A DNA stretch of 64,000 nucleotides from contig CP001769.1 in assembly GCA_000024525.1 (NCBI GenBank), forward strand, positions 1,116,001 to 1,180,000, in the 5' to 3' direction. The notes beneath the pieces were generated by a model. It was not told where the DNA came from, did not search any database, and was given only the letters and a program-made list of their open reading frames with translations. The DNA comes from Spirosoma linguale DSM 74 (GTDB lineage Bacteria; Bacteroidota; Bacteroidia; Cytophagales; Spirosomataceae). Both the position numbers and the translations under genes were made by a program. This document shows, one piece after another, positions 43,820-64,000 of this stretch; the first letter of the stretch is position 1, and each line of letters starts with the position of its first letter.

Positions 43820-46177
43820 ATGACTGTATTAACTGAAACATTTTGGCTTTGGCAGTTTTTGGGCCGTCTGCACCCGCTGATGGTTCATTTTCCGGTAAGT
43901 TTATTGTGCATTGCACTCATACTCGAAGCGGTTGGCTGGTTCCGCAAATCGACCGAGTTACAGGCGGGTATCCGTGCCATGGTCTGGATCGGTACGATCA
44001 GTTCGGTGGTGGCGGCCGGGCTGGGACTGCTTCTGGTCAATCAGGACGATTACGGCGGCAACACCGTAATCGTGCACCAGTGGTCGGGTCTGGCAACGAT
44101 GGCCCTCGCCATATTGACCGTTCTCGCCCTGCGCTCCGGCCGGACCAGTTTATACCGGGGGTTATTAACTACCACCGTGTTGGGCGTGAGCCTGGCGGGT
44201 CATTACGGAGCCATGCTCACCCACGGCGACGACTACCTGAGCAGCGTGTTGCCGTTCGACAAAGGGGGGAGTTCGCCGGTAGAAAGTGAAACCAAATTTG
44301 CCTTCGCTACTGTCAATCAACCCCTGAACGACAAGCAGATTGGCGAACTGAATATGGAGGTTCGGTCCATTCTGGCGCACAATTGTTACAGTTGTCATAG
44401 TGCCACCAAAACCAAAGGCGGTCTGCGGCTGGACAAGAAAGAGTTAGTGATGAAAGGGGGCGAGGATGGCGTTATTCTGGTGGCTGGCCATCCGGAAGAT
44501 AGCGAAATCATCCGGCGGATCAAGCTCCCCGCCGGTCATAAAGAGGCTATGCCAACGAAGGGCAAACGCCTGTCTGAACATGACGTTGAGTTACTCGAAT
44601 ACTGGATTAAACAAGGCGCTCCCTGGCCAAGTGGCCCCGAAAAAAGCATTTACCGGGTAGCGGCTCTGGAACCCCGCTTACCTGAACTACCCAATGCCCC
44701 GGCCGGTATTACTAACCCCATCGACAAGTTTGTGAACGTCTATTTTCAGCAGCATAAACTGACCTGGAAGAACAGCGTAGACGATCGGACCTACATTCGT
44801 CGGGTTTCCCTGGATGTGGTGGGTTTACTGCCAACGCCCGAACAGATCAAGACATTCGTCGCTGACCAGCGACCCGACAAACGCGACCTGCTTGTTAAGG
44901 AGCTGCTAAATCGAAATACCGACTACGCTCAGCACTGGCTAACTTTCTGGAACGACGCCCTCCGCAATGATTATACCGGTACGGGCTACATTACCGGTGG
45001 TCGGTTCGACATTACCAGTTGGCTTTATAACTCGCTGAAAACCAACAAACCTTATAATCAGTTTGTGCGTGAACTGGTAAGCCCTACCAAAGAATCGGCG
45101 GGGTTTATCAAGGGCATCAAGTGGCGCGGAACGATTAATTCGAGCCAGCGCACCGAAATGCAGGCCGCGCAAAACGTATCGCAGGTGCTGCTTGGGCTCA
45201 ATCTCAAGTGTGCGTCGTGTCACGATAGCTTTATAAGCGACTGGAAACTGGCCGATGCCTATGCCTTTGCCAACGTATTTGCCGATACAACCCTGGAGAT
45301 CAATCGCTGCGATAAGCCGACAGGCAAAAAAGCCGGTACACGCATCATCTTCGAAAAACTGGGTACTATCAATGGCAAAGCAACTACCGACGAACGACTC
45401 AAAGAACTGGCCGATTTTCTGGTGCAGCCCAAAGACGGCCGATTGTACCGCACGGTGGTGAACCGGATTTGGGCGCAGGTGATGGGCCGGGGAATCATTG
45501 AGCCGGTCGATGTGATGGATAACGACCCTTGGAGTCAGGATCTGCTGGACTGGCTGGCGTCTGATTTCGTTACGAATGGCTACGACATCAAAAAGCTGAT
45601 GTACACCATTCTAACCTCGAAAACCTATCAGCTTCCTTCTGTTGGGCTCAAAGAAGCGGACATGATCACGGCCCCCAACTTTGTTTTTCAGGGTATGGTA
45701 CGCCGTCGCTTAACCGCCGAGCAGTTTGCCGATGCCGTCAGTCTGGCGTTCAGCCCGGTTTATGCCGACACATCGATTGTGGAGAAGCAGTTTCCGCAGC
45801 AACTCAAAAAAGAAATGCCGTTTCCACGGGCGTCTCTGGTTAAAAACGACCCGTTCCTGACTGCTCTGGGCCGCCCGAACCGCGAAACGGTCAGCACCAG
45901 CCGGTCGTCGCAGGCGAACCTGTTGCAGGCTCTGGAGCTAACCAACGGGGAGAAGTTCAACGATGCCCTTAAGCGCGGGGCTCAGCAATGGAAAGCTACC
46001 TACCCAACGTCGGATGTGCTGGTACGAAATCTCTACTGGAAAGCGCTGGGCCGGGAGCCAAAACCCAATGAAATGGCCGTTGCACAGAAAATTGTGGGCA
46101 AAAACCCCAGCACAGAGGGAATTCAGGATCTGGTATGGGCTATCAGCCTGCACCCCGAGTTTCAGTTAATTTATTGA
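43820..46177 (+). CDS. DUF2231-cytochrome c-DUF1549-DUF1553 fusion protein
   Basis: A 785-residue membrane-anchored protein. Residues 1-150 are a DUF2231-type membrane domain with the motifs GRLHPLMVHFP and GHYGAMLTHGD. A planctomycete-type cytochrome c domain follows, with haem motif C189YSCH193 and probable distal Met in KEAMPTKGK. Next are DUF1549 (~290-510; RRVSLDVVGLLPTPEQI) with a second CxxCH at C464ASCH468, and DUF1553 (~545-780; LYRTVVNRIWAQVMGRGI, GYDIKKLMYTILTSKTYQ). DUF1549/DUF1553 proteins are of unknown activity and usually paired with DUF1501, as here (46323). Fusion to DUF2231 suggests electron transfer at the inner membrane. The conserved His residues in the membrane part could bind haem b, which is speculative. 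Confidence 0.88.
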   Translation: MTVLTETFWLWQFLGRLHPLMVHFPVSLLCIALILEAVGWFRKSTELQAGIRAMVWIGTISSVVAAGLGLLLVNQDDYGGNTVIVHQWSGLATMALAILTVLALRSGRTSLYRGLLTTTVLGVSLAGHYGAMLTHGDDYLSSVLPFDKGGSSPVESETKFAFATVNQPLNDKQIGELNMEVRSILAHNCYSCHSATKTKGGLRLDKKELVMKGGEDGVILVAGHPEDSEIIRRIKLPAGHKEAMPTKGKRLSEHDVELLEYWIKQGAPWPSGPEKSIYRVAALEPRLPELPNAPAGITNPIDKFVNVYFQQHKLTWKNSVDDRTYIRRVSLDVVGLLPTPEQIKTFVADQRPDKRDLLVKELLNRNTDYAQHWLTFWNDALRNDYTGTGYITGGRFDITSWLYNSLKTNKPYNQFVRELVSPTKESAGFIKGIKWRGTINSSQRTEMQAAQNVSQVLLGLNLKCASCHDSFISDWKLADAYAFANVFADTTLEINRCDKPTGKKAGTRIIFEKLGTINGKATTDERLKELADFLVQPKDGRLYRTVVNRIWAQVMGRGIIEPVDVMDNDPWSQDLLDWLASDFVTNGYDIKKLMYTILTSKTYQLPSVGLKEADMITAPNFVFQGMVRRRLTAEQFADAVSLAFSPVYADTSIVEKQFPQQLKKEMPFPRASLVKNDPFLTALGRPNRETVSTSRSSQANLLQALELTNGEKFNDALKRGAQQWKATYPTSDVLVRNLYWKALGREPKPNEMAVAQKIVGKNPSTEGIQDLVWAISLHPEFQLIY

Positions 46178-46322
46178 TAAGCCTTTTGCCAGAACCCGAC
46201 ATCACGGCCCGGCCCCGACACCGCAGAACGGAGCCCGACAATAAAGTAAAAAATAACGAACAACGTCTTATAACTGCCTGATGTACAACTTGTACACCCG
46301 GTGCTCTAGAGGGAATAGAAAT

Positions 46323-47759
46323 ATGAATACGAACTGGAATAGACGGGAATTTCTACAAAAAACCAGTGCTGCAACCATGGCTGCCCTGGCAGCAGGAGCC
46401 CCTGTATCAAGCCTGTTATCGGGTTGCAGCCGGACGCGGAAGCCGGGTGAAACAACGGGCACCGCCGATACGGTCATTCTGCTCTGGATGGCGGGCGGTA
46501 TGGCGCATACAGAAACGTTCGACCCCAAACGGTACACCCCTTTTGAGAAAGGGATGGAAGGAAACCGGGTGTTGAGTACCTTCAAATCGGTTCCGACCGT
46601 GCTGGATGGCATTCATTTTTCGGACGGGCTTCAGTCCATCGGAAAGGTGATGGACAAGGGAACGTTGATTCGATCCTACGTGGCTGCGGATATGGGGCAC
46701 ATCCTGCACTCCCGTCACCAGTACCATTGGCACACCTCTTATGAGCCACCCCAAACCGTAGCGGCTCCGCATATCGGTTCATGGATTGCTAAAGAGCTTG
46801 GCCCAAAAAATCCGGTCATCCCGGCATTTGTCGACATTGGTCAGCGGTTCACGGTGGGCGAGGCCGAAGAGTTGAAAGCTTTTCATACCGCCGGTTTTCT
46901 GGGGAATGAATATGGCCCGTTCTTTATTCCGGACCCAAGTCAGGGGCTGGAAAGTGTTCGGCCGCCGGTGGGCATGGATGCCAAACGATTTGAACGCCGG
47001 AACCAACTGTATAACGATCTGATCAGTGGCGGACCAATGGGCGAGTTTGGGAGTGATTACCAGAAGGAATCGCTCAAGCGGTCGATGGAACAGGCCTATA
47101 TGCTGCTCAATTCGCCTGAAGCCAAGGCATTCGACCTGAGTAAAGAACCTAAAGCGAGCTACGACATTTATAATACCGGCAAGTTCGGGCTGGGCTGTTT
47201 GCTGGCCCGTCGTCTGACCGAACAGGGTGCCCGGTTTATTAGCGTCACAACTGAATACGAGCCGTTTAAAGGCTGGGACACCCATGAAAACGGACATACC
47301 CGGCTGGAAGACATGAAAAAACAAATTGATGGGCCTATTGCACAGCTCATCAAGGATTTGGATAAAACCGGCCACCTCGACCGGACCATTGTTATTCTGG
47401 CCAGCGAGTTCAGCCGGGATATGATGGTAGAAGGACGACCGGACGCTAAAGTACGGGAGCAGGTGAAGCAACCCGAAATTCTGTCCGACCTGAAATTCTA
47501 CGGTATGCACCGTCACTTTACGGATGGCTGTTCGATTCTGATGTTTGGCGGAGGCATCAAAAAAGGATTCGTCTACGGCAAAACCGCCGATGAGCGCCCG
47601 TGTAAGACGATCGAGAATCCAATCCATATTGAAGGCATTCACCAGACGATCTACCACGCGCTGGGCATTGCCCCTGATACCCATTATGAAGTGGAAAAAC
47701 GCCCATTCTATTCAACACCGGATGGAAAAGGGAAGGCCGTCATGGACTTGCTGGCGTAG
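46323..47759 (+). CDS. DUF1501 protein, Tat-exported lipoprotein
   Basis: A 478-residue protein with a twin-arginine signal (NRREFLQKTSAATMAAL) and a lipobox LLSGC35. The DUF1501 core includes LLWMAGGMAHTETFDPKR, GWDTHENGH, TIVILASEFSRD and FGGGIKKGFVYGKT. The fold is related to sulfatases and alkaline phosphatases, but no sulfatase Cys/Ser-x-P-x-R motif is visible, and no activity is established for the family. ATG 46323 supplies the Tat signal; an upstream codon at 46281 is rejected. It is partner of the DUF1549/DUF1553 protein just upstream, the arrangement normal for these families. Tat export suggests it folds with a cofactor in the cytoplasm. Confidence 0.9.
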   Translation: MNTNWNRREFLQKTSAATMAALAAGAPVSSLLSGCSRTRKPGETTGTADTVILLWMAGGMAHTETFDPKRYTPFEKGMEGNRVLSTFKSVPTVLDGIHFSDGLQSIGKVMDKGTLIRSYVAADMGHILHSRHQYHWHTSYEPPQTVAAPHIGSWIAKELGPKNPVIPAFVDIGQRFTVGEAEELKAFHTAGFLGNEYGPFFIPDPSQGLESVRPPVGMDAKRFERRNQLYNDLISGGPMGEFGSDYQKESLKRSMEQAYMLLNSPEAKAFDLSKEPKASYDIYNTGKFGLGCLLARRLTEQGARFISVTTEYEPFKGWDTHENGHTRLEDMKKQIDGPIAQLIKDLDKTGHLDRTIVILASEFSRDMMVEGRPDAKVREQVKQPEILSDLKFYGMHRHFTDGCSILMFGGGIKKGFVYGKTADERPCKTIENPIHIEGIHQTIYHALGIAPDTHYEVEKRPFYSTPDGKGKAVMDLLA

Positions 47760-47910: not shown

Positions 47911-47937
47911 GGGTTCGCGCTAAACAAATTGTTCGGT

Positions 47938-50268
47938 ATGCATAAAAGTGCTTTTTATATCATTGGACTGATTGCCGGGGTTGTCGTGTATCTGCAATCC
48001 TGTTCAACGAGTTCGTCCAGCCGGGTTATTGACCAGGGCCGGTCGGATAACATACCCGAAACAATCAGCTATAACTTCGATATCCGGCCCATTCTTTCCG
48101 ATAAGTGTCTGGCCTGCCACGGGCCGGATGCCAACAAGCGGGAGGCTGGTCTGCGACTCGATATGGCTGAAAGTGCGTACAAAGCCTTAAAAGAGCATCC
48201 ATCGGCTCATGCGCTGGTGCCGGGTAAGCCCGAGCTGTCGGAAGTGTTTCTGCGCATTACCTCGCCCGATACGTCGATCATGATGCCCCCGCCCGCATCG
48301 AACCTAAAGCTGACCGCCCGCGAAATAAAGCTGATCGAGAAATGGATTCAGCAAGGGGCAGCTTATGAAAAACATTGGTCGTTTGTTCCGCCCAAAAAAC
48401 CGGGTGTGCCAACCGTAAAACTGGCCGAGTGGCCCAGGAATGAAATTGATTATTTTATCCTGCAAAAGCAGGAGCAGCAGGGGGTAACGCCAAACGAAGA
48501 AGCCGATAAAGAACGATTGCTCAAGCGGCTGAGTCTGGATTTGGTCGGCTTGCCGCCTACACTTGCCTTAATGGATGGCTTCCTGGCCGACAAGAGTGCT
48601 AATGCGTATGAAAAAGTTGTCGATCAGCTACTGAAAAACCCGGCTTATGGGGAGAAAATGGCGTTGCACTGGCTCGATCTGGCCCGGTATGCCGACTCGC
48701 ACGGGTATCAGGATGATGGGTATCGGACGCAGTGGCCCTGGCGAGACTGGGTGATTCATGCCTTCAACAAAAACATGCATTACAACGATTTCGTGAGCTG
48801 GCAACTGGCGGGCGATCTGATGCCCAACAGTACTAAAGAACAACTGCTGGCTACGGGCTTCAACCGGAATCATAAAATCACCGAAGAAGGGGGCGTCATT
48901 CCCGAAGAGTACCGGACCATGTACGTGACCGACCGGACCGATCTGTTTGGCAAGGGATTGCTCGGCGTAACCATCGAATGCGCCCATTGTCACGACCATA
49001 AGTACGACCCCTTCTCGCATAAAGAGTATTACCAGCTTTTCGCGTTTTTCAATAATGTGAAAGAGGTTGGGATTGAGTCCGTTATTGGTGGCCCCGATAC
49101 GTACGCCAAGAAACCATTGATGGAAATTAGTGATGAGGAGGTAAAAAGTATCCTGTCGTTCGTCAATAAACGGGATACCAACCGCCTGATCGTGTCCGTG
49201 ATGGGTGATCTGGATACCACCCGAAAAACATTTATTCTCAAGCGCGGAGTGTACGATGCACCCGGTGATGAAGTGCAGCCCGGAACGCCCAAAGCCATCT
49301 TGCCCTTCAATCCCAGCTACCCCAAAAACCGACTTGGGCTGGCCCAATGGTTGTTCGACAAGAAAAACCCGCTTACGGCCAGGGTGTATGTTAATCTACT
49401 ATGGCAGGAGTTCTTCGGAAAAGGCATCGTTCGCACAGCCGGCGATTTCGGGATGCAGGGCGAACTGCCTTCCCATCCCGAACTGCTCGACTGGCTGGCG
49501 GTCGATTTCATGGAGCATAACTGGGACATTAAACGGCTGGTAAAACAGATGGTGACCTCTGCTACTTACCGTCAGTCGGCCGTGATTACGCCTGAGAAAC
49601 TGGCTGCCGATCCGGACAACCGGTTACTGGCCCGAGGGCCGCGTTATCGTATCCATGCCGAATTTGTGAAGGATCTGGTATTGAGCAGTAGCGGGTTGCT
49701 GAACCCCACCATCGGCGGTCCCAGCGTGAAGCCCTATCAACCCGCCGGTTTGTGGGAAGGAGCAACGTCGGGGCGGGGTCTGCTGTCGATGTACACGCAG
49801 GATCATGGACCAAGCCTGTACCGGCGTGGTATGTATACCCTGATCAAACGTACGGTTCCGCCCCCGTCGATGGCTATTTTCGACGCCAGCAACCGCGATC
49901 TCTGCGAAGTAAAACGGCTGAAAACCAATACGCCCCTACAAGCGCTGGTTATGATGAATGACCCCACCGTACTGGAAGCGTCGCGTGTACTGGCCGCCCG
50001 GCTGCTGCAGGAGCGGGGAGACGTAAATGCCAAGATAGAAAAGGCATTTCGGCTGATTGTCAGTCGAAAACCAAATGAGAAGGAAGTCGCTATCCTGAGT
50101 GATTATTACAATAAAGAACTAGGGAAATCGACCCGAGCGAGTGCCGAGAAGTCGCTGGCAGTGGGCGAGTATCCAATTCCGGCCAACATTGACAAAGTGA
50201 AGCTTGCCGCCCTGATGCGGGTTATGACAACCATTTATAATCTCGAAGAAACCATCACTAAGTCCTGA
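47938..50268 (+). CDS. Cytochrome c-DUF1549-DUF1553 lipoprotein
   Basis: A 776-residue lipoprotein (lipobox LQSC22). The N-terminal planctomycete-type cytochrome c domain has C57LACH61 and distal Met in IMMPPPAS. DUF1549 follows (~145-365; RLSLDLVGLPPT) with a second haem motif C348AHCH352 in AHCHDHKYDPFSHKEYY. DUF1553 runs ~440-700 (YPKNRLGLAQWLFDKKNPLT, LLWQEFFGKGIVRTAGDFG, LPSHPELLDWLAVDF). ATG 47938 is used; the frame also has a TTG at 47929. It resembles canonical planctomycete proteins of this type more closely than the fusion at 43820, though more compact. The DUF1501 gene follows after 5 bp, so the two are co-transcribed. The function is unknown; a periplasmic electron-transfer or oxidation role is inferred from the haem sites. 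Confidence 0.92.
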   Translation: MHKSAFYIIGLIAGVVVYLQSCSTSSSSRVIDQGRSDNIPETISYNFDIRPILSDKCLACHGPDANKREAGLRLDMAESAYKALKEHPSAHALVPGKPELSEVFLRITSPDTSIMMPPPASNLKLTAREIKLIEKWIQQGAAYEKHWSFVPPKKPGVPTVKLAEWPRNEIDYFILQKQEQQGVTPNEEADKERLLKRLSLDLVGLPPTLALMDGFLADKSANAYEKVVDQLLKNPAYGEKMALHWLDLARYADSHGYQDDGYRTQWPWRDWVIHAFNKNMHYNDFVSWQLAGDLMPNSTKEQLLATGFNRNHKITEEGGVIPEEYRTMYVTDRTDLFGKGLLGVTIECAHCHDHKYDPFSHKEYYQLFAFFNNVKEVGIESVIGGPDTYAKKPLMEISDEEVKSILSFVNKRDTNRLIVSVMGDLDTTRKTFILKRGVYDAPGDEVQPGTPKAILPFNPSYPKNRLGLAQWLFDKKNPLTARVYVNLLWQEFFGKGIVRTAGDFGMQGELPSHPELLDWLAVDFMEHNWDIKRLVKQMVTSATYRQSAVITPEKLAADPDNRLLARGPRYRIHAEFVKDLVLSSSGLLNPTIGGPSVKPYQPAGLWEGATSGRGLLSMYTQDHGPSLYRRGMYTLIKRTVPPPSMAIFDASNRDLCEVKRLKTNTPLQALVMMNDPTVLEASRVLAARLLQERGDVNAKIEKAFRLIVSRKPNEKEVAILSDYYNKELGKSTRASAEKSLAVGEYPIPANIDKVKLAALMRVMTTIYNLEETITKS

Positions 50269-50273
50269 CCGTC

Positions 50274-51728
50274 ATGGAAAAAGAAATTCTCGAACACGGC
50301 CTCAATTTTAACCGGCGTCGTTTTCTGTCCAGACTTAGCTTAGGGCTGGGCAGCGCTGCGCTGGGTTCGTTGTTAATTCCTGACCTCTTCAGCGGAAGTA
50401 GTACGGATGAGGATGGCCTGACAGTTGGTATTCCGCATTTTGCCCCCAAAGCCAAACGGGTCATCTACCTGTTTCAGAACGGAGCGCCTTCCCAGCAGGA
50501 ATTGTTTGACTACAAGCCCAAGCTGCGGGAAATGATGGGGCAGGAGTTGCCGCCCTCCGTTCGCGGTACGCAACGACTCACGGGCATGACGGCCAACCAG
50601 AAGGAGTTTCCGATGGTGGGTTCATTTGTCGACTTCAAGCAATACGGCGAGTCGCGGGCCTGGGTTAGCGACCTGTTTCCGTACACCGCCAAAATAGTTG
50701 ACGACCTGTGCATTGTGAAGTCGATGTTTACGGAGGCCATCAACCACGACCCGGCCCTGACGTTTTTACAGACGGGTTCGCAGCAGGGTAACCGGCCGAG
50801 CATGGGCTCGTGGTTGAGCTACGGCTTGGGGAACGAGAATAAAAACCTTCCTAATTTCACGGTACTGCTTTCACGCGGGATTGGTAACGGGCAGGGCGTT
50901 TACTCCAAGCTATGGTCGAACGGCTTCCTGGATTCCGTGCATCAGGGCGTTCAGTTCAGCAAGGGCGAAGACCCGGTACTCTATCTGCGCGACCCCGAAG
51001 GCATGAGTCGAAAGGATCGGCGGGATATGCTCGATAATCTGGCTCAGCTCAATGACCTGTCGTATCAGGAGTTTGGCGATCCGGAGATAGCCGCTAAAGT
51101 GAAGCAGTACGAAATGGCTTACCGGATGCAAACAGCCGTGCCGGAGGTGATGGACCTGTCGAAAGAGCCGGACGATATCATTAAACTCTACGGCCCCGAC
51201 TGTCTGGTGCCCGGTACGTTTGCCGCCAACTGCCTGCTGGCGCGTAAATTATCCGAAAATGGCGTTCGCTTTGTTCAGCTGTACCACCAGGGATGGGATC
51301 AGCACGGCAACTTACCCTTCGAAATAGCCAAACAGGCAAAGGACGTCGATCAGGCATCGGCAGCGCTGGTTACCGACCTAAAACAGCGGGGTTTGCTGGA
51401 TGAAACGCTGGTTATCTGGGGCGGTGAATTTGGCCGGACAAGTTACACACAGGGCAAACTCACCAAAGAAAATTACGGTCGCGATCACCATCCGCGCTGC
51501 TTCACCATCTGGATGGCGGGCGGTGGTATCAAGCCCGGTATGGTGTATGGCGAAACCGACGATGTAGGCTATAACATCATCAAAGACCCCGTTCATGTGC
51601 ATGATTTCCAGGCTACGGTTCTGAACCAACTGGGGCTTAACCATGAAAAACTAATCTTCAAACATCAGGGTCGGCGGTACCGATTGACGGACGTATCCGG
51701 GAAAGTGATACACGACATTATCGCCTAG
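50274..51728 (+). CDS. DUF1501 protein, Tat-exported
   Basis: A 484-residue protein with a twin-arginine signal (FNRRRFLSRLSLGLGSAALG, Arg14-16). Core motifs are YLFQNGAPSQQELFDYKP, MFTEAINHDPALTFLQTG, GWDQHGNLP, TLVIWGGEFGRTSYTQG and DHHPRCFTIWMAGGGIKPG, the classic DUF1501 pattern and better conserved than in the copy at 46323. It starts 5 bp after the DUF1549/DUF1553 gene, a tight operon pair. The two probably form a functional unit in the periplasm. Fold related to alkaline phosphatase; reaction unknown. Confidence 0.93.
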   Translation: MEKEILEHGLNFNRRRFLSRLSLGLGSAALGSLLIPDLFSGSSTDEDGLTVGIPHFAPKAKRVIYLFQNGAPSQQELFDYKPKLREMMGQELPPSVRGTQRLTGMTANQKEFPMVGSFVDFKQYGESRAWVSDLFPYTAKIVDDLCIVKSMFTEAINHDPALTFLQTGSQQGNRPSMGSWLSYGLGNENKNLPNFTVLLSRGIGNGQGVYSKLWSNGFLDSVHQGVQFSKGEDPVLYLRDPEGMSRKDRRDMLDNLAQLNDLSYQEFGDPEIAAKVKQYEMAYRMQTAVPEVMDLSKEPDDIIKLYGPDCLVPGTFAANCLLARKLSENGVRFVQLYHQGWDQHGNLPFEIAKQAKDVDQASAALVTDLKQRGLLDETLVIWGGEFGRTSYTQGKLTKENYGRDHHPRCFTIWMAGGGIKPGMVYGETDDVGYNIIKDPVHVHDFQATVLNQLGLNHEKLIFKHQGRRYRLTDVSGKVIHDIIA

Positions 51729-51741
51729 CGAGTTTGTTTCG

Positions 51742-51824
51742 AACAGCTTCCAGCTGTTTGCAGACGGCTAATTGGCCACGATTCCTTAACTGAATTTTTA
51801 TTACAAACAGCTTCCAGCTGTTTG
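51742..51824. repeat. Two copies of a 19-bp palindromic repeat
   Basis: AACAGCTTCCAGCTGTTTG occurs identically at 51742-51760 and 51806-51824, 64 bp apart. Each can fold alone (AAACAGCT-TCC-AGCTGTTT at the second copy). They lie between the DUF1501 and DUF2231 genes. This could be a transcription-end or mRNA-processing element, or a binding-site pair. Confidence 0.75.
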
Positions 51825-57200: not shown

Positions 57201-57483
57201 CTGGAACAGTACGCAATTCCTGGCTGATGCCTCTTTCTTTACCATCAAAAATATAACGCTTGGCTATAACATTGGAGCAGTCAATAAGCTCTTCAAGTCG
57301 GCACGTTTATATGCTTCGGCTCAGCAGGTCTATATATTCACGAAATACTGGGGTGGTCCAAACCCGGAGACCAGCGGCAACGGAGCTGGCGATGGTGACG
57401 GTGGTAACCTAAGCCAGGGAGTTGACTTCTCGAACTATCCGGTTCCACGTACCTACACACTTGGCGTTAACCTGAACTTTTAA
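54280..57483 (+). CDS. SusC/RagA-family TonB-dependent outer-membrane transporter
   Basis: A 1067-residue protein with a signal peptide (MKRFYLSMAMAMVIAESFASS). The carboxypeptidase-regulatory-like domain includes VSGKVIDEKGDGLPGVSVV and LVFSFVGYARKEA. The TonB-box region is NEVVVVGYGSQ. The plug contains LQGRLAGVQINQATGKPGQG, DPLYVVDGFPI and DAASTSLYGSRAANGVVLIT, and the barrel ends TYTLGVNLNF. The N-terminal domain is close to that of the first SusC, but the plug and barrel differ, so the ligand is probably different or a variant. It is followed 88 bp later by a SusD-like gene and has the same promoter motif as the first SusC. Confidence 0.96.
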   Translation: MKRFYLSMAMAMVIAESFASSAKQPNGGLSKDGRSVSALVAINAPDRLAEAATDITVSGKVIDEKGDGLPGVSVVIKGSTQGTTTDGTGSFKISVPNANSTLVFSFVGYARKEAVVGGQTTLTVTLTPDDQTLNEVVVVGYGSQLKKEITGAVQTVSAAEIKDLPVSQIGQKLQGRLAGVQINQATGKPGQGISIRIRGQVSVSAGSDPLYVVDGFPITGNIAQLNPDEIEDLSVLKDAASTSLYGSRAANGVVLITTKKGKPGQTNISFSAFAGVQKVPMRGRVKMLDAVQFAQFKKEYYEDQGQAVPVEFQNPSQYEGKNNDWYDALLRQAPLQSYNLSISNNTGKANTSLVAGIFNQDGVVLNNKYKRYSLRLNSNYNLSDRVTIGFNVAPSYVYDNTPRTDGDRGTGILFNALHTWPVMPIYAANGELTKFNTFPGSTGNIFQYPNWVRAANELVNETKNTNLLANAYVQYRPITGLTLRSTMNIEYQNSKFFFFNPSTATSAINVPIPTTAVSIRQGLENTSWLNENLATYTRSFNDHNFELLAGFTNQWYRQEFNRIQADTYADDRLPTIQGALNINRGGTNNGINQWALTSYLSRLTYNYKGKYLFTAAVRSDGSSRFGANNQYGTFPSASVGWVLSDENFMKTVMPVSFAKVRASYGVIGNNNIGNYTSYALVNNTTNAVFGSTVATGAVVRSLANPNLGWETTKQFDIGLDLGLLNDRIQFIYDFYTKRTTNLLYAVQIPQESGFTNFNDNIGEIKFWGHEFSLTTKNTTGRLKWNTNANISFNRNLVVALAPGIDRVYGSFHITQVGKPFGQFYGLIKEGYYQSAEELRSSPIIPGRSAIGTIKMKDVNGDGVITYGGDADDRTIIGSPFPKFTYGITNDLKYGNFDFSITGSGSYGNQLWVRHLYSTANLDAVFNMVEGVKDRFRVQNVVTNGVGVATKVITPGAGQFGATNNGGNFTGIERDWNSTQFLADASFFTIKNITLGYNIGAVNKLFKSARLYASAQQVYIFTKYWGGPNPETSGNGAGDGDGGNLSQGVDFSNYPVPRTYTLGVNLNF

Positions 57484-57571
57484 TTCATCGTCATAGAATC
57501 GTTAATGGTTGTCATTTATCGAGTGACAATGCAATAACCATCAGATGGCCTATAAACTCATTTCGAACCAT

Positions 57572-59089
57572 ATGACACGTAAATACATTGCGACCTGGCT
57601 TTTAGCAATTGCCTTAACCGGTTGCAGCAAAGATTTCCTGACTGTAGTTCCCGAAACAGAGCTGAGTTCGGCAACATTTTTCAAGACTGAAGCCGATTTT
57701 CAGCAGGCTGTCAATGGAGCTTATGTACCCCTTCGGCAAATGTTTAACGAGCGGGCCTGGGTGTTGGAGGAGATGCACTCCGACAATACGTATTATGCCC
57801 GTAACACGCTCTACGGGGCTGTTGACCCAACTGAAAACGTAGCTGATTTTGCCGTTCCAACGGCCAACGGAGTTACCGCCAATGACAACGTATTGGTACA
57901 GTACCGGCTGAATTATGTGATAATTGCCCGGGCCAATCAAATTCTGTCGCTTATCGACGGCAATGGCGTAACGTTCAGTTCAGAAGCATTGAAAAATAAT
58001 CTGAAAGGACAGGCCTTGTTTCTGAGAGCCTTCGCCTATTTTGACTTGGTGCGCCTGTTTGGCAAAGTCCCGTTGCATTTGGTGCCGGTTACCGGTCGTG
58101 AAGACGCAGCTCTGCCTTTGGCTACAACAGATGCTCTTTATGCGCAGATCGAAAAAGATGCCTTAGCGGCCAGTACTGCCTTGCCGAACAAAGCTACTCA
58201 GCAAGATGGACGGGCTACATCGGGAGCGGCTAAAGTCCTGCTGGCGAATCTGTACATTACACAGAAAAAATGGGCGCAGGCTGAAACACTGCTGAAAGCG
58301 GTAGTCGCTAATGATGGCTATATATTGATGCCCGATTATAACGATGCGTTTTCGTTTACCAGCGCGAACAAGAACAACAAGGAGTCTGTGTTCGAGATTC
58401 AGTACATGGAAGGTTCGGCTGGGTATAACGGTAACCAGATTTACCGCTTTATTCCATCTCCCATAACGGCTACGGAGATTGCCCCTCTTACCGGCACATC
58501 GAACCCGCAGCCTACGTCGCAGGAGAGTAACAACATTCCGACGCCGGATCTTATTGCCGCTTATGAACCCGGCGATAAGCGGAAGGATATTTCTATCGGG
58601 TACGTTACGTTGAGTGGTAGCCTACGCGCCGATAAAACGTATCCGTATATCAAAAAATACGCTCGCCCTCACTCGCAGCACAACAATACCGGTCAGAACT
58701 GGCCTGTCTATCGCTACGCCGAAGTGCTGCTATTCCTGGCAGAATCGCTAAATGAGCAGGGCAAAACGGGTGAGGCTGCTCCCTATATCAATCAGGTACG
58801 TGCTCGTGCAGGTCTAGCCGCTACAACGGCATCGTCGCAGACCGATATGCGGGAGGCTATTTTCAGAGAACGGCGCGTTGAGCTGGCTTTCGAGAATAAG
58901 CGTTGGTTTGACCTGACCAGAACGGGTCGTGTAAAGGAGATTATTGGTGCCTACGGCGCGAAGGTAAAAGCCAACCCGGCTGCGTATTACTTCCCAGCTG
59001 GAGCGGTTCCGCCACCGAATGCCTTCACCGTTTTGGACGATTATTACGGACTGCCAGCGGTTGAAGCGGCTTTGACTCCGAATTTCTAA
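57572..59089 (+). CDS. SusD/RagB-family outer-membrane lipoprotein
   Basis: A 505-residue lipoprotein (lipobox LTGC18; ATG 57572 chosen over 57545 because it gives a proper lipoprotein signal). SusD features are FQQAVNGAYVPLRQMF, LKGQALFLRAFAYFDLVRLFG, RYAEVLLFLAESLNEQGK and RERRVELAFENKRWFDLTR. It is the surface ligand-binding partner of the SusC encoded just upstream. A strong terminator (59101-59130) follows, so it ends the operon. Confidence 0.96.
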   Translation: MTRKYIATWLLAIALTGCSKDFLTVVPETELSSATFFKTEADFQQAVNGAYVPLRQMFNERAWVLEEMHSDNTYYARNTLYGAVDPTENVADFAVPTANGVTANDNVLVQYRLNYVIIARANQILSLIDGNGVTFSSEALKNNLKGQALFLRAFAYFDLVRLFGKVPLHLVPVTGREDAALPLATTDALYAQIEKDALAASTALPNKATQQDGRATSGAAKVLLANLYITQKKWAQAETLLKAVVANDGYILMPDYNDAFSFTSANKNNKESVFEIQYMEGSAGYNGNQIYRFIPSPITATEIAPLTGTSNPQPTSQESNNIPTPDLIAAYEPGDKRKDISIGYVTLSGSLRADKTYPYIKKYARPHSQHNNTGQNWPVYRYAEVLLFLAESLNEQGKTGEAAPYINQVRARAGLAATTASSQTDMREAIFRERRVELAFENKRWFDLTRTGRVKEIIGAYGAKVKANPAAYYFPAGAVPPPNAFTVLDDYYGLPAVEAALTPNF

Positions 59090-59100
59090 TAATTAATCCA

Positions 59101-59130
59101 TTGAGTTGGCGTTTACAAACGCCAACTCAA
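59101..59130 (+). terminator. Intrinsic terminator of SusCD operon 2
   Basis: Perfect 14-bp arms (TTGAGTTGGCGTTT and its complement) separated by 2 nt, 11 bp after the SusD stop. A T5 run follows 8 bases beyond the stem. Confidence 0.8.
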
Positions 59131-59352
59131 TACAAGTCTTTTTGCTTTGAATACCAAGGTTGGTGATTCTGATTACCTAGAAGCAGAATCGGTTTCGGCT
59201 CTGCTTCTTTTCTTTCTTTTTCTATCAACCCCGCTGCGGTATATCATCAGAAATCAACGCTTTAGTAAACGTAGCCTGAAGCTGTAAGAACAGTGAGCAG
59301 GTCATATAGTGCGCCAGAATAGGCATCGATGTTAACTTACTCAATAGGAAGC

Positions 59353-62061
59353 ATGTTTTTCAAACAAAAATCATCCAGGTTGCTGCTATTTGTTTCGGCC
59401 ATGGCTCTGGCCGGAACATCCTGGGTCAACATGAGCGGAGTAACGTCCGAAACAACCAAAGCAGACAACCCCAAACTAGACAAGCTGAAGCTGCTGCCTG
59501 GTTTTAAAGCGGAGCATTTGTATAGCCCCTCCGACAATAAGCAAGGTTCGTGGGTGGCTATGACCTTCGACGATAAAGGTCGAATGATCACTTCCGATCA
59601 ATACGGGTTTCTTTACCGACTGGAAATTCCGCCCGTTGGTTCGGGTAACCAGCAACCTAAAGTTGAGAAGCTGAAAGTGGGCATCGTCCAGCCCGGCGAT
59701 ACAACGGTGGGGATGGGCTATGCGCAGGGCTTGTTGTACGCCTTCAACAGCCTGTATGTGATGGTGAACAACCGGGTGAACAAAAATTTTAATAAACCAA
59801 CGGGATTATATCGCCTTCAGGACACTAACGGTGATGATCAGTTTGAGACAATTACGCTGCTGAAAGAGCTGAAAGGGCAGGAGGGTGAACATGGCCCGCA
59901 CAGCATGAAGCTCTCTCCAGATGGCAAGTCAATTTATCTTGTTGCGGGAAATCACGTCGACGTTCCGCAAATGGATGCCTATCGGTTGCCATCGAACTGG
60001 AAAGAAGATAATCTGTTCCCGCAAATAAAAGACCCCCGCGGGCATGCCAACGACCGTATGGCGCCTGGTGGCTGGGTAGCCAACATTGACCCCGAAGGAA
60101 AGCGATGGGAATTAATAGGAGCCGGTTTCCGAAATACATTTGATATTGCGTTCAACGAAGCCGGTGATATGTTTGGCTATGACTCCGACATGGAGTGGGA
60201 CTTTGGTCTGCCCTGGTATCGCCCAACCCGGATTTGCCATATTACCAGTGGATCTGAGTTTGGCTGGCGTACCGGAAATGGTAAGTGGCTTCCCGGAAAC
60301 CCCGACAACTTGCCACCCCTTCTGAACATTGGTCAGGGATCGCCAACGAACCTGATGTACGGCGACAAGGCTCGTTTTCCCGAGCGGTATCGCCAGTCGT
60401 TATTTGCCTTTGACTGGAGCTTTGGTATTATCTACTCGATTCATCTCAAACCTAAAGGTGCCACCTACGAAGGGGAGCGGGAAGAGTTTATTTCAGGATC
60501 GCCCCTGCCATTGACCGATGGTATGTTCGGTCCCGATGGCGCTATGTATTTTTTGACGGGCGGTCGTCGTTTGGAGTCGGATTTGTACCGGGTTACCTAT
60601 ACCGGCACTGAATCCGTAACTCCGGTTGCCAAAGCACCTGTCATTACTAAAGAACACCAGCTCAGAACACAACTGGAACAGTATCACCATGGGGCGAATC
60701 CGGCGGCTGTAGCGGCTGCCTGGCCTAACCTGAACCACCCGGATCGCTTTGTGCGCTATGCTGCCCGAATTGCTGTTGAACATCAGCCCGTTGCTCAATG
60801 GCAGGAGCGCGTGTTTACCGAAACCGATCCGCAGCGCCTAACACAGGCGGCTGTTGCTCTGGCCCGGCAAGGCGATGCAACGCAAAAGAGTAAGCTGTAT
60901 AATGCATTAGTTAAGATTAACTATAACCAGTTGTCGGAATCACAGCAATTTGATCTGAGCCGTGCTTTTGAATTGGCTATGTTACGGATGGGCATGCCGG
61001 AAGGAGCCGACCGTGATAAGGTGATTGCTTACCTTAACCCGCATTATCCGGCTAAAACGGCCTTGCTCAACCGTGGTCTCAGCCGCGTTCTGATTTCTCT
61101 CGAAGCACCGGGTGTCGTTAATAAAACGCTGGCGCTTATGGATATAAAAGATGAGCCAGGCAGCAAAGATTTGGGCCTTGAGACAGCTACCGCTTCGTCT
61201 GACCTTATCCTTCGCAACCCACAGTATGGTTTGGATATTGCTAAAATGCTGGAGAAAGTACCGCCCTTACAGCAAACATTCTATGCCGTTATGTTGAGCC
61301 GGGCCGATGCTGGCTGGACACCGGAACTGCGGACCAAGTACTTTACTTGGTTTGGAAATGCGTTCAAATACCAGGGTGGTCGAAGCTATGTGGGCTTTAT
61401 CGACAGAGCACGCAAGCTGGCCTTGAACCACGTGCCGAAAGAGCAGTTTGAGAAGTTTAACAAGCTATCGGGTGCCGACCTGCTAACGGCCAACGGGAAC
61501 GATTTTGTTACCGATTATGCGCCAAAAGGTCCCGGTCGGCGTTGGGAACTGGCTAGTGCAGTTGCGGTTGTCGATAGTGGATTAGCCGGGCGCAGCTTCG
61601 ATACGGGTAAGAAAATATACTCCGCTATTCTATGTAGCCGCTGTCATTCGATGGGCGGTCAAGGAGGAGATATTGGCCCTGACCTGACTCAGCTGGGCAC
61701 TCGCTTCTCCAATAAAGATATTCTGGAAGCCATCATCCACCCGGATAAAGCCATATCCGATCAATATGTGTCTACCATTTTCACGCTGAAAAATGGGCAG
61801 TCTGTGTTGGGGCGTCTGGTGAATGAAGATAAAACCAGCTACTCGATTTCGCAGAACCCCTTCGCGCCCGATGAGGTTCGGAAAGTGGCGAAGAAAGATG
61901 TAGTATCGAAGAAAAATTCGACCGTTTCTATTATGTTGCCGGGGCTTATTAACAGTCTCAACCCAAGTGAACTCAAAGATTTGGTTGCCTATCTGAAATC
62001 GGGTGGTAATCAGAATAACGAGGTTTACAAAGCAGCTGCGGGCGGAACGAAAGGTAAATAA
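59353..62061 (+). CDS. PVC-type beta-propeller haem protein (putative membrane-bound dehydrogenase)
   Basis: A 902-residue exported protein. ATG 59353 gives the signal-like N-terminus MFFKQKSSRLLLFVSAMALAG. A sugar-dehydrogenase-like beta-propeller occupies ~35-440 (MTFDDKGRMITSDQYGFLYRL, EHGPHSMKLSPDGKSIYLVAG, NTFDIAFNEAGDMFGYDSDM, SGSEFGWRTG). A helical repeat region follows at ~450-740. The C-terminal cytochrome c domain has C761SRCH765 and the downstream GPDLTQLGTRFSNKDILEAI, HPDKAISDQY and MLPGLI, typical of Pirellula/Verrucomicrobium-type haem domains. It could oxidise a sugar or alcohol in the periplasm and pass electrons to its own haem; the reaction is inferred. It is followed by a DUF1080 gene that would fit an oxidised-glycoside pathway. 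Confidence 0.88.
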   Translation: MFFKQKSSRLLLFVSAMALAGTSWVNMSGVTSETTKADNPKLDKLKLLPGFKAEHLYSPSDNKQGSWVAMTFDDKGRMITSDQYGFLYRLEIPPVGSGNQQPKVEKLKVGIVQPGDTTVGMGYAQGLLYAFNSLYVMVNNRVNKNFNKPTGLYRLQDTNGDDQFETITLLKELKGQEGEHGPHSMKLSPDGKSIYLVAGNHVDVPQMDAYRLPSNWKEDNLFPQIKDPRGHANDRMAPGGWVANIDPEGKRWELIGAGFRNTFDIAFNEAGDMFGYDSDMEWDFGLPWYRPTRICHITSGSEFGWRTGNGKWLPGNPDNLPPLLNIGQGSPTNLMYGDKARFPERYRQSLFAFDWSFGIIYSIHLKPKGATYEGEREEFISGSPLPLTDGMFGPDGAMYFLTGGRRLESDLYRVTYTGTESVTPVAKAPVITKEHQLRTQLEQYHHGANPAAVAAAWPNLNHPDRFVRYAARIAVEHQPVAQWQERVFTETDPQRLTQAAVALARQGDATQKSKLYNALVKINYNQLSESQQFDLSRAFELAMLRMGMPEGADRDKVIAYLNPHYPAKTALLNRGLSRVLISLEAPGVVNKTLALMDIKDEPGSKDLGLETATASSDLILRNPQYGLDIAKMLEKVPPLQQTFYAVMLSRADAGWTPELRTKYFTWFGNAFKYQGGRSYVGFIDRARKLALNHVPKEQFEKFNKLSGADLLTANGNDFVTDYAPKGPGRRWELASAVAVVDSGLAGRSFDTGKKIYSAILCSRCHSMGGQGGDIGPDLTQLGTRFSNKDILEAIIHPDKAISDQYVSTIFTLKNGQSVLGRLVNEDKTSYSISQNPFAPDEVRKVAKKDVVSKKNSTVSIMLPGLINSLNPSELKDLVAYLKSGGNQNNEVYKAAAGGTKGK

Positions 62062-62134: not shown

Positions 62135-62914
62135 ATGATTAAAAACATAAGGCTCAACTTTATCCAGCTTGGTCTGATGCTTGCTGTTATTGCAACGGTC
62201 AGTATCAATATGTCTTGTGTGGCGCAAAAAAAGAAAAATGGCTTTGTAAAAATATTCGATGGTAAATCGCTCAAAGGCTGGGATGGTGACCCAACCTATT
62301 GGCGGGTAGAAAACGGAAATCTGGTCGGGGAGATTACCCCGTCAACCCTCCTCAAAACCAATAACTTTATCATCTGGCGCGGGGGCGAGCCCGGCGATTT
62401 TGAGTTTACCGGTGAGTTTAACATTACCGAAGCGGGTAACTCAGGTATTAATTATCGAAGTGAGCAATTGACCGATGTGCCTTTTGCCTTACGCGGGTAT
62501 CAGGCCGATATTGACGGACAAAACCGCTATACAGGCCAGAATTATGAAGAACGGAAACGGACAACGCTGGCGTATCGTGGCCAGAAGACAACCATACCGC
62601 CCTATACAGGTGAGGCAACTCCAGAGGCTGTTCGAGCCAATGTGAAGCGAAATGCCTGGGGTGGATTGACCGTTACCGGCTCGCTGGGTAGCTCAGACTC
62701 TCTCAAAACATTTATTAAAAGCCAGGATTGGAACACGTTTCGGTTGGTCGTCAAAGGCAATCGTCTGCAACATTATATCAATGATATTTTGATGAGCGAT
62801 GTAACGGATGAAGACACCGTTAATGGTAAGGCAAAAGGACTGCTGGGCGTTCAGGTGCACGTAGGTCCCCCCATGAAAGTACAGTATCGAAACCTGATGC
62901 TGAAGCAACTGTAG
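62135..62914 (+). CDS. DUF1080 (3-keto-disaccharide hydrolase family) lipoprotein
   Basis: A 259-residue protein with a lipoprotein signal (SINMSC28). The DUF1080 domain begins FVKIFDGKSLKGWDGDPTYW and contains WRVENGNLVGEI, NFIIWRGGEPGDFEFTGEF, NSGINYRSEQ and GYQADIDGQN, and ends GLLGVQVHVGPPMKVQYRNL. The family folds as a concanavalin-like beta-sandwich, and members have been shown to act on 3-keto glycosides. It lies 73 bp after the haem dehydrogenase-like gene. This neighbourhood, an oxidase candidate beside a 3-keto-glycoside hydrolase, suggests sequential action. Local function is inferred. Confidence 0.9.
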   Translation: MIKNIRLNFIQLGLMLAVIATVSINMSCVAQKKKNGFVKIFDGKSLKGWDGDPTYWRVENGNLVGEITPSTLLKTNNFIIWRGGEPGDFEFTGEFNITEAGNSGINYRSEQLTDVPFALRGYQADIDGQNRYTGQNYEERKRTTLAYRGQKTTIPPYTGEATPEAVRANVKRNAWGGLTVTGSLGSSDSLKTFIKSQDWNTFRLVVKGNRLQHYINDILMSDVTDEDTVNGKAKGLLGVQVHVGPPMKVQYRNLMLKQL

Positions 62915-62919
62915 GTTGA

Positions 62920-62990: not shown

Positions 62991-63024
62991 CTGCTAACTA
63001 ATCACTAATAACAATTAACCAGCC

Positions 63025-64000
63025 TTGACTCAACAATCCTGGACAGACAAAGTATCCAACCCAGCCCAAATCGGCGGTATCGAAACATCCATTCTCGACA
63101 ATGGAACTGGCCGGGGCACTCGTATCGCGTGGATAAATACCGGCACCGGCCTACGCTATAAAGTCGTCATTGACCGGGCTATGGACATTGCCGATGCTTT
63201 TTTCAATCAACATAGCCTGGCCTGGCTCAGCCATACGGGCATTACGCCCCCTCAGCCACTCTCCGACAAGGGGGCAGACTGGCTCCGTACATTTGGGGGT
63301 GGATTGCTTACTACCTGCGGCCTCTCGCATGTGGGTGGCCCCGAGCAGGATGCTTTTGGCGAGCGTGGGTTGCACGGGCAGATAAGCAACAGCCCGGCCG
63401 AAATCGAATCCATTATTCAGCCCGACCCACTTAGGGGACAATTGGAGATGAGCATAACCGGCCGGATTAAGGAAACCAAAATATTCGGTCCCAGTCTGGA
63501 GTTGCGACGCACTATTTCCGGAACGCTCGGGCAGCCCTTCATTCGAATTCACGACGAAGTCATAAACCGGGCCAATACACCGGCACCTCACATGCTGCTG
63601 TACCATTTTAATTTCGGTTGGCCATTAGTCGATGAAGGGACAGATATTATCTGGAAAGGCAACTGGCAGGCGCGGGAAGGGGGAATCAATGCGGATATCT
63701 TCCACGAAGGCAACGACTTTCGTAAATGCCCGGCACCTTTGGATACGCACGGTGGTACGGGCGAAGCCGTGGCTTCCATTGATAGTACGCCCGACAGTTC
63801 TGGGCAATGTACAGCCGGTTTGCATAACGCTCAACTGGGCATGGCCGTAGCCTTACGGTTCCGGAAAGATCAATTGCCCTGGCTCATTAATTGGCAACAC
63901 TGGGGAAAAGGTGAGTACGTCACGGGTTTGGAGCCCACAACCAATCCACTTATTGGCCAGGCAAAAGCGCGTGAACAAAACGAACTCATTTTCCTGAAAT
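63025..64000 (+). CDS. DUF4432 aldose-1-epimerase-fold protein (partial, C-terminus off window)
   Basis: The frame is open from 63025 to the right edge, about 325 residues. It begins with TTG (63025-63027) preceded by an in-frame stop at 63016. The first ATG in frame (63181) would remove conserved sequence (NPAQIGGIETSILDNGTGRG, YKVVIDRAMDIADAFFNQHS), so TTG is chosen. Other family features are WLRTFGGGLLTTCGLSHVGG, ERGLHGQISNSPAE and MLLYHFNFGWPL, and near the edge LEPTTNPLIGQAKARE. DUF4432 proteins resemble galactose mutarotases and are presumed to act on sugars. There is no signal peptide, so a cytoplasmic role after uptake is likely. It probably belongs to the sugar-processing end of this locus. 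Confidence 0.85.
   Translation, partial: MTQQSWTDKVSNPAQIGGIETSILDNGTGRGTRIAWINTGTGLRYKVVIDRAMDIADAFFNQHSLAWLSHTGITPPQPLSDKGADWLRTFGGGLLTTCGLSHVGGPEQDAFGERGLHGQISNSPAEIESIIQPDPLRGQLEMSITGRIKETKIFGPSLELRRTISGTLGQPFIRIHDEVINRANTPAPHMLLYHFNFGWPLVDEGTDIIWKGNWQAREGGINADIFHEGNDFRKCPAPLDTHGGTGEAVASIDSTPDSSGQCTAGLHNAQLGMAVALRFRKDQLPWLINWQHWGKGEYVTGLEPTTNPLIGQAKAREQNELIFLK

Follow-up and report, generated by a model that had tools for sequence, protein, structure and literature searches.

A locus of Spirosoma linguale DSM 74 with two SusC-SusD importers and four haem proteins is probably a real, conserved oxidative utilisation locus for a small sugar compound, that is, a glycoside, an anhydrosugar or a related derivative. 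It is situated in a stretch of 64,000 nucleotides (GenBank CP001769.1, positions 1,116,001 to 1,180,000), called the window and used for all coordinates, and is read as a variant of 3-keto type sugar utilisation. All twelve genes from SusC1 through DUF4432 are on the forward strand. They encode two SusC-SusD pairs, two pairs of a DUF1549/DUF1553 haem protein (Dcyt1, Dcyt2) and a DUF1501 protein (DUF1501a, DUF1501b), a haem protein with LRR (LRRcyt), a beta-propeller candidate with a haem domain (PVCcyt), a DUF1080 protein and a DUF4432 protein. Genes were called from an open reading frame (ORF) listing together with Pfam and NCBIfam scans. Gene content, domains, conserved order, association counts and conserved residues are direct observations.

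The original prediction described a sugar-oxidation locus without a classical glycoside hydrolase (GH), in which two importers bracket both DUF1549/DUF1553-DUF1501 pairs and four multi-domain cytochrome c proteins. Both importers were detected with Pfam and NCBIfam, the left one (38932-43679) outside the interval 43820..64000 to which it had been assigned. In both pairs, DUF1549, DUF1553 and PSCyt1 exceeded their cut-offs and a DUF1501 gene adjoined. All four haem proteins have CXXCH motifs, with counts of 2, 2, 1 and 1. The overall reading gained support from a Gfo/Idh/MocA gene downstream, from RbsACB genes in relatives and from a gene run around pair 1; electron flow, substrate and oxidation site are matters of interpretation. 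The membership of pair 1 (43820-47759) in the sugar operon is supported. Pair 2 and LRRcyt (47929-54033) are best read as a general redox cassette that was added to the operon in the Spirosoma lineage. The predicted carbohydrate link of the DUF1549, DUF1553 and DUF1501 families stands for pair 1 with the right-hand operon and is unproven for pair 2, which had no general link to SusD or DUF1080.

Pair 1 was found near sugar genes in bacteria of other families. The sample comprised 20 DUF1501a loci from 19 genera and nine families outside the family of Spirosoma, hand-picked with a preference for long contigs and differing genera. Controls were 39 round coordinates in genomes of the phylum, none from the genomes of the 20 loci. 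A propeller gene was present in 10/20 loci and 0/39 controls (p = 2.9e-6; the Fisher tests ignore shared ancestry). DUF1080 was detected in 9/20 versus 1/39, AP_endonuc_2 in 8/20 versus 0/39, DUF4432 or a protein of 405 amino acids (aa), here named 'cupin', in 7/20 versus 0/39, and Gfo/Idh in 9/20 versus 3/39. Any of propeller, SusD and DUF1080 was present in 12/20 loci versus 2/39 controls; against all 47 controls, the p value was 2.1e-5. Eight same-genome controls, from 8 of the 20 genomes, had no propeller, no DUF1080 and no 'cupin' gene (0/8 each). RbsACB-type ATP-binding cassette (ABC) genes were absent near pair 1 (0/20). Some stretches stop at contig edges and cover ~11-19 kb instead of 20 kb.

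An earlier sample of ten pair-1 loci consisted of all low-scoring DUF1549 hits (136-174 bits) besides that of the window; one partial hit of 81.5 bits was left out. Hits in this range are of the Dcyt1 type, and one locus (L223) is a distant relative only (33% and 23%). In seven of the ten, the stretch encodes SusD, DUF1080 or a propeller (GSDH or PVC haem). The propeller profile was trained on three of these loci (L215, L217, L220), so this count is partly circular, and the counts of the 20 loci are not. Two genera of the second sample (g38, g156) recur among the first ten.

In three loci (L229, L232, L235), Dcyt1-DUF1501a-PVCcyt-DUF1080-DUF4432-cupin-AP_endonuc_2-Gfo/Idh form a run on one strand with gaps of 0-269 bp. 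Wider gaps precede DUF4432 in L231 and L234; L231 stops before Gfo/Idh, and L236 has no DUF4432. These six loci represent six genera of one family (f19). The first four genes of the run are present in L238 (family f24). L225 (f5) has SusC1-SusD1-Dcyt1-DUF1501a-DUF4432-cupin-AP_endonuc_2-Gfo/Idh, without propeller or DUF1080. The recurrence of the arrangement in other genera indicates more than chance. In the simplest reading, an older operon consisted of pair 1 and the right-hand window genes, and pair 2, LRRcyt, SusC2 and SusD2 joined it later in the Spirosoma lineage; we infer this polarity. Three loci of the first sample (L218, L219, L221) sit among sulfatase genes identified by Pfam; L218 and L221 also have DUF1080 and Gfo/Idh-like genes. 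The substrate of these loci could be sulfated. Sulfatases near pair 1 were not enriched (profile matches in 4/10 loci of the first sample versus 5/39 controls, p = 0.07; 1/20 in the second sample versus 5/39).

The right-hand genes were also traced through 'cupin' orthologues, which were sought in 35 genomes (from 36 of the 80 Dcyt2 loci described below). Orthologues 79-99% identical were present in 30/35; the other five genomes are four Pedobacter and one metagenome-assembled genome of Chitinophagaceae. About 20 kb around 'cupin' were read in 20 genomes. SusC2-SusD2-PVCcyt-DUF1080-DUF4432-cupin-AP_endonuc_2-Gfo/Idh occurred in this order in Spirosoma and in a genome labelled Flavobacterium SUN052. 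Larkinella and Telluribacter have one extra gene, Aquirufa has a rearranged operon, and other forms occur elsewhere. An RbsACB-type ABC importer is encoded behind Gfo/Idh in 10/20 stretches (two Spirosoma, one Larkinella, four Dyadobacter, Telluribacter, Aquirufa and SUN052). S. linguale has such genes ~100 kb off and not behind Gfo/Idh; their products are 75, 82 and 80% identical to those of Larkinella rosea. The genome labelled Flavobacterium sp. SUN052 (L005, L131) has ~8.1 Mb, and its loci encode proteins with 67-96% identity to their window counterparts; it may be mislabelled or a mixed assembly.

The region right of position 64000 had been set beforehand as a test, with Gfo/Idh/MocA or GMC oxidoreductases as the expected enzymes. 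A Gfo/Idh/MocA gene was found there, and no GMC dehydrogenase among the genes scanned. The best NCBIfam model for the Gfo/Idh/MocA protein is the levoglucosan dehydrogenase NF052479 (338.9 bits), and its closest solved structures are 4h3v and 6a3f (272.9 bits). The latter, deposited as 'putative dehydrogenase', is presumably levoglucosan dehydrogenase. The 405-aa protein is a highly conserved member of an unnamed family, as judged by its orthologues. Its name is our assumption: parts resemble, by eye, what we take to be class I mannose-6-phosphate isomerases, a likeness that no search confirmed. Inspection of the first 48 residues revealed no signal peptide in DUF4432, 'cupin', AP_endonuc_2 and Gfo/Idh, in keeping with a location in the cytoplasm. 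The DUF4432 protein agrees with the predicted mutarotase fold: among solved structures it is nearest to 3ty1 (E 8.6e-21), a hypothetical aldose 1-epimerase. A 3-keto-glycoside hydrolase-family lipoprotein had likewise been predicted and was recovered as a Pfam match to DUF1080 with a lipobox-like N-terminus. An M14 zinc carboxypeptidase-like protein of 944 aa (L001:7923-10757) closes the run after Gfo/Idh and has no counterpart in the loci of the relatives that were read.

PVCcyt had been predicted as a haem-tethered beta-propeller dehydrogenase of 902 residues; the gene as listed encodes 910. The haem domain passed the TIGR02603 cut-off (91.2 versus 68.15 bits), and the propeller part fell below that of TIGR02604. 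His188 and Arg268-Asn269 align with two GSDH-Pfam proteins and are kept in 15/15 propeller rows, two of which are one gene. We take these residues to be His144 and Arg228-Asn229 of soluble glucose dehydrogenase.

Features of the locus in window coordinates, with strand and supporting matches
Feature	Position	Strand	Remarks
GntR-type regulator with LacI-like ligand-binding domain (Peripla_BP_3)	37504..38559	-	Pfam; divergent from SusC1
SusC1, TonB-dependent importer	38932..42171	+	Pfam Plug, CarbopepD_reg_2, barrel
SusD1, outer-membrane binding lipoprotein	42183..43679	+	Pfam SusD_RagB
Dcyt1 (pair 1)	43820..46177	+	DUF2231 membrane domain, PSCyt1 haem, divergent DUF1549, DUF1553; two CXXCH
DUF1501a (pair 1)	46281..47759	+	twin-arginine motif; lipobox-like Cys49
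Dcyt2 (pair 2)	47929..50268	+	lipobox-like N-terminus; PSCyt1, DUF1549, DUF1553; two CXXCH
DUF1501b (pair 2)	50274..51728	+	twin-arginine motif
LRRcyt	51844..54033	+	DUF2231-like membrane domain (alignment), PSCyt1 haem, LRR, Fn3_assoc/CHB_HEX_C_1
SusC2, SusC/RagA family	54280..57483	+	TIGR04056, 840 bits
SusD2	57545..59089	+	Pfam SusD_RagB
Inverted repeat, 15-pair stem and 4-base loop	59099..59132	.	between SusD2 and the propeller gene
PVCcyt, GSDH-like beta-propeller candidate with C-terminal c-type haem domain	59329..62061	+	910 aa; H188, R268-N269 conserved
DUF1080 (3keto-disac_hyd, PF06439), putative lipoprotein	62135..62914	+	Pfam 119.2 bits vs 26.8; lipobox-like Cys28 by eye
DUF4432, aldose-1-epimerase-like	63025..64086	+	gene end beyond the 64-kb window
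405-aa 'cupin'	64108-65325 (= L001:4108-5325)		right of window; no family match
AP_endonuc_2 protein	65467-66495		right of window
Gfo/Idh/MocA oxidoreductase	66568-67725		right of window

We infer the reactions, the C3 position, the substrate, the electron path, the cell compartments and the roles of DUF1549, DUF1553 and DUF1501 from these genes. SusC1D1 and SusC2D2 would carry the compound over the outer membrane. In the periplasm, PVCcyt, as a GSDH-like haem propeller, may oxidise a ring hydroxyl, most likely at C3. Electrons could pass from the c-type haem of PVCcyt to the PSCyt1 haems of Dcyt1 and LRRcyt, and further via the His-rich DUF2231 membrane domain to quinone. The membrane-anchored Dcyt1 and the exported DUF1501a would be part of the oxidising or processing complex. 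The DUF1080 protein may split the keto-glycoside, and the product would enter the cytoplasm through the RbsACB-type ABC importer. The mutarotase-like DUF4432 protein, 'cupin', AP_endonuc_2 and Gfo/Idh/MocA could then turn it into a normal hexose.

The pathway resembles known systems in parts. The LacABC and DUF1080 pathway for 3-ketolactose in Caulobacter and Pedobacter, as outlined in the available text of Price et al. (2022; PMC9007349), which also names BT2157, shares an exported DUF1080 protein, periplasmic oxidation and glycoside use without a GH step, features that the genes predict here. Unlike that pathway, the S. linguale locus has no GMC dehydrogenase or LacC-like protein among the genes scanned; it has a haem propeller and a DUF1549/DUF1553-DUF1501 pair instead, and AP_endonuc_2 and Gfo/Idh genes follow. 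What we take to be the 3-keto glycan pathway of Bacteroides (BT2157-BT2160 type) also combines the DUF1080 and Gfo/Idh/MocA families; the S. linguale Gfo/Idh is far under the equivalog cut-offs of BT_2158 and BT_2159. To our knowledge, the BT2157-BT2160 set has no haem proteins. Levoglucosan clusters (lgdA-lgdB1-lgdB2-lgdC), as described in the accessible parts of PMC7676230 and PMC10066097, are alike in the Gfo/Idh type, an AP_endonuc_2 protein and, in relatives of S. linguale, a sugar ABC importer. Here, SusCD, DUF1080, the haem propeller and the DUF1549/DUF1553-DUF1501 pair come in addition. An annotation as levoglucosan operon was rejected: the dehydrogenase is under the NF052479 cut-off of 650 bits.

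Several observations weigh against oxidative 3-keto utilisation by this locus. The propeller part of PVCcyt reached 79.4 of the 122.2 bits required by TIGR02604, and a Pfam scan of the window protein at E 0.001 gave no GSDH domain. Gfo/Idh falls well short of the levoglucosan, BT_2158 and BT_2159 model cut-offs, and the 405-aa protein has no Pfam or NCBIfam match and no significant match in the Protein Data Bank (PDB). Neither propeller nor SusD nor DUF1080 was present in the stretch read at 8/20 pair-1 loci and at 3 of the first 10, and the complete eight-gene run was seen in family f19 only. SusD was not significantly enriched (3/20 versus 1/39, p = 0.11) and was present in 2/8 same-genome controls; SusD proximity was therefore rejected as evidence. 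The genome contains seven LacC-like PF13618 genes, all >1 Mb from the locus, and canonical 3-dehydrogenases may thus exist without it. DUF1080 has 19 matches in the whole genome, and the predicted action of this family on 3-keto glycosides does not always apply: THTE_1561 is an endo-xanthanase/lichenase according to the available text of PMC9007349.

The order of oxidation and import bears on a second explanation, in which oxidation starts with the cytoplasmic Gfo/Idh, as it does in the levoglucosan (Lgd) pathway, and the haem proteins of the periplasm have another target, for example an aglycone or a sugar-derived aldehyde. It is doubtful, yet has evidence of its own. The NF052479 and 6a3f matches point in this direction, and Lgd clusters contain Gfo/Idh, sugar-phosphate-isomerase-type proteins and ABC importers in the accessible parts of PMC7676230 and PMC10066097. 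Four Dyadobacter stretches and one of Runella keep DUF1080 and Gfo/Idh and have neither SusCD nor a propeller in the ~20 kb read. These stretches have extra genes between DUF1080 and DUF4432; in L117 these are two AP_endonuc_2 genes, one ThuA and one alpha/beta-hydrolase gene. Against it, the propeller and the exported-looking DUF1080 directly precede the downstream genes in the family of Spirosoma and in f19, which fits periplasmic oxidation and cleavage ahead of import.

For periplasmic oxidation, the membrane domain of Dcyt1 and LRRcyt would offer a route for electrons. DUF2231-type domains are located at 43820-44240 (Dcyt1) and 51844-52380 (LRRcyt). The five histidines of the LRRcyt domain are conserved at 100% in 27 close relatives and at 96-100% in 23 sequences from the phylum. 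The same columns reach 94-100% in 18 Dcyt1 proteins, and 73-82% in 11 proteins from the first ten pair-1 loci; among these 11 are probably the distant L223 and one Dcyt2-type protein lacking a DUF2231 domain. Among the 20 new Dcyt1 proteins, each of two His motifs occurs in 18/20, and 20/20 have two CXXCH. Five histidines at membrane segments, joined to a c-type haem, suggest b-type haems and electron transfer to or from quinone. From the sequence, DUF2231 is a candidate b-haem domain for quinone-linked electron transfer.

DUF1501 may be sulfatase-like, which qualifies the predicted absence of GHs, lyases and sulfatases. The absence itself was confirmed for the families scanned, including PF00884: proteins scanned from 18918 to 77198, with window positions 1-18917 and small ORFs outside the scan, had no match to a GH, polysaccharide lyase (PL), carbohydrate esterase (CE) or sulfatase family. 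Up to E 5, the DUF1501 profile had 10 PDB matches, all of them to sulfatases or to a phosphonate monoester hydrolase; the best is weak (E 0.0047). One homologue (P0145) is named 'sulfatase' by its source, and the DUF1501 proteins did not match PF00884. DUF1501a and DUF1501b share GWDxH-type and EFxR residues; DUF1501a, whose homologues have 67-98% identity, lacks the DHH stretch of DUF1501b. The PDB profile search found no solved relative for DUF1549/DUF1553; the sole match of weight was the c-type haem domain to FoxE (E 3.9e-7). A bolder proposal is tentative and rather unlikely: the DUF2231-anchored DUF1549/DUF1553 protein, the Tat-exported DUF1501 protein and the propeller would be a new membrane-bound, quinone-linked complex that oxidatively opens glycosidic bonds in the periplasm, replacing GHs. 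If true, it would explain the dozens of DUF1549/1553/1501 copies in planctomycete and verrucomicrobial genomes.

Pair 2 has a different distribution. A genome scan confirmed 395 Dcyt2-related stretches, and the best 80 came from Spirosoma, Larkinella, Dyadobacter, Aquirufa, Runella, Pedobacter, Chitinophagaceae and others. DUF1501b is in the same run as Dcyt2 in 79/80 loci, and the remaining locus runs into a contig edge. A SusD-like gene shares the same-strand run in 26/80 and RbsACB-type ABC genes in 9/80; Dyadobacter loci have neither. This variation indicates that pair 2 changes neighbours. Phylum-wide, DUF1549 was detected at E 1e-20 in 38/296 genomes. Forty loci of the common type (>260 bits), hand-picked with long contigs favoured, were compared with the 39 controls. 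DUF1501 was present in 39/40 versus 0/39 and LRRcyt in 24/40 versus 0/39. SusD (1/40 versus 1/39), SusC (6/40 versus 10/39), DUF1080 (0/40 versus 1/39), Gfo/Idh (5/40 versus 3/39) and the propeller (1/40 versus 0/39; 2/40 with a second propeller profile) were not enriched. This speaks against a general carbohydrate role of the common DUF1549 type, and the generalisation that all DUF1549/DUF1501 genes are sugar genes was rejected.

The same counts could suggest that both DUF1549/DUF1553-DUF1501 pairs are general redox or surface modules without a sugar role, placed in the operon by chance or shared regulation. Pair 2 and LRRcyt have no phylum-wide link to SusD, DUF1080 or propellers, and the Dyadobacter cassette is separate from the sugar operon. 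For both pairs together this is unlikely: pair 1 heads a tight run in three genera, and propeller, DUF1080 and 'cupin' are well above the controls. Among 148 genomes of the order, 32 have a close DUF1501b relative: all 18 genomes with 'cupin', versus 14/130 'cupin'-less genomes, a co-occurrence inflated by shared ancestry. Eleven of the 18 belong to the family of Spirosoma; outside it, the ratio was 7/7 versus 14/130.

Other genes recur near the cassette. A protein of ~341 aa is encoded in 11/40 common-type loci, and a Pedobacter protein of that size, between DUF1501 and LRRcyt, has a weak NHL-repeat match. In Pedobacter, a GH95-family protein (L068:4677-6959) is encoded two genes upstream of a DUF1549-DUF1501 cassette; GHs are thus not absent around every copy of the cassette. 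A DUF1800 gene (tested in L034) and a neighbour of ~510 aa are located at L034:4726-7902, and both clusters are near the cassette in six loci. DUF1501-DUF1800 genes adjoin bacterial chitin synthases in the accessible part of a 2016 chitin-synthase paper (PMC5122149). Elsewhere in the S. linguale genome, two DUF1549 paralogues carry Laminin_G_3 and another adjoins a SASA-type esterase-domain protein. In L132 (contig positions 1268001-1288000), the RbsACB genes ~100 kb from the locus are directly before a 1066-aa DUF1549/DUF1553-Laminin_G_3 protein and a DUF1501 gene.

The substrate could also be a cyclitol or a similar polyol. Gfo/Idh would then act as inositol-type dehydrogenase, and AP_endonuc_2 would be an enzyme of the inosose dehydratase type. 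Gfo/Idh also matches the scyllo-inositol/L-glucose dehydrogenase 5ya8 (164.4 bits) and the inositol dehydrogenase model TIGR04380 (126.4 versus 355 bits), and Rbs-type ABC importers also serve inositols. This is improbable: DUF1080 and the aldose-epimerase-like DUF4432 suit a glycoside or aldose better, and no IolB, IolC or IolD Pfam match was found among the genes scanned. Two unrelated utilisation loci that are neighbours by chance are very improbable, in spite of a 246-bp gap with a promoter-like match ahead of SusC2 and of 'cupin' and Dcyt2 being far apart or on different contigs in 19/30 genomes, given the single run of pair 1 and the right-hand genes in f19, in part also in two more families (L225, L238), and a 'cupin'-Dcyt2 distance of <=25 kb in 11/30 genomes with both, versus ~0.2 expected (Spirosoma 5, Larkinella 3, Adhaeribacter 2, Telluribacter 1), with junctions that differ by genus in related, not independent, genomes. 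Distances were computed in 17/30 genomes; in the remaining 13 the genes were on different contigs and scored as not near.

A carbohydrate link of PSCyt genes is not new. As far as the available text goes, He et al. (2017; PMC5615132) proposed that PSCyt genes act on carbohydrates in Verrucomicrobia, calling their function unknown, and reported CBM domains, sulfatase neighbours and an inverse correlation with GH density (r = -0.62). These clusters of Verrucomicrobia and Planctomycetes have PSCyt and PSD domains beside a partner gene, as here, and the Laminin_G_3 paralogues and the sulfatases near three of the first ten pair-1 loci are further likenesses. Different from those clusters, one pair here belongs to a defined sugar operon that also encodes importers and candidate cytoplasmic enzymes, and sulfatase proximity was not significant. 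At the level of titles and abstracts, no report of a DUF1549/DUF1553 function was found; nor, at listing level and with most subscription journals outside the search, one of a SusCD operon with these genes. Planctomycetes have many copies of DUF1549 and DUF1553, with 41 of each in Rhodopirellula baltica according to the accessible part of PMC2754498. Through pair 1, the locus appears to tie this large, uncharacterised family to sugar oxidation. With one pair joined to importers, a haem dehydrogenase candidate, a keto-glycoside hydrolase-family protein and candidate downstream enzymes in a culturable bacterium, its function is directly testable by genetics and growth on defined sugars. The accessible description of S. 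linguale DSM 74 (PMC3035282) lists oxidative acid formation from many sugars and glycosides, including alpha-methyl-D-glucoside, salicin, lactose and trehalose, as well as esculin hydrolysis, and places the strain in biosafety level 1. Beta-elimination of keto-glycosides is covered in the available part of PMC10628242.

Regulation may be sugar-responsive. The divergent GntR-type regulator is 85-100% identical across the five Spirosoma loci scanned (L002, L003, L004, L012, L016) and, from its domains, is a candidate sugar-responsive regulator. The stem-loop at 59099-59132 is possibly an attenuator or a transcript end and could uncouple SusCD expression from the downstream genes. Promoter and terminator scans were near shuffle levels (22 versus 18.3, standard deviation (sd) 3.9; 17 versus 24.9, sd 5.1), and the spacers searched had no match to what we take to be the Bacteroidota -7-type motif. 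As for a SusCD-type polysaccharide utilisation locus, adjacent SusC-SusD genes were present (two pairs), and a co-located GH, PL or CE gene was absent among the proteins scanned. The Dcyt2 start is listed as TTG; the real start may sit a few codons downstream. Apart from the locus, five successive genes of 802-965 aa at 18918-32782 on the reverse strand each encode MacB_PCD and FtsX domains, a long paralogous ABC-permease-like array.

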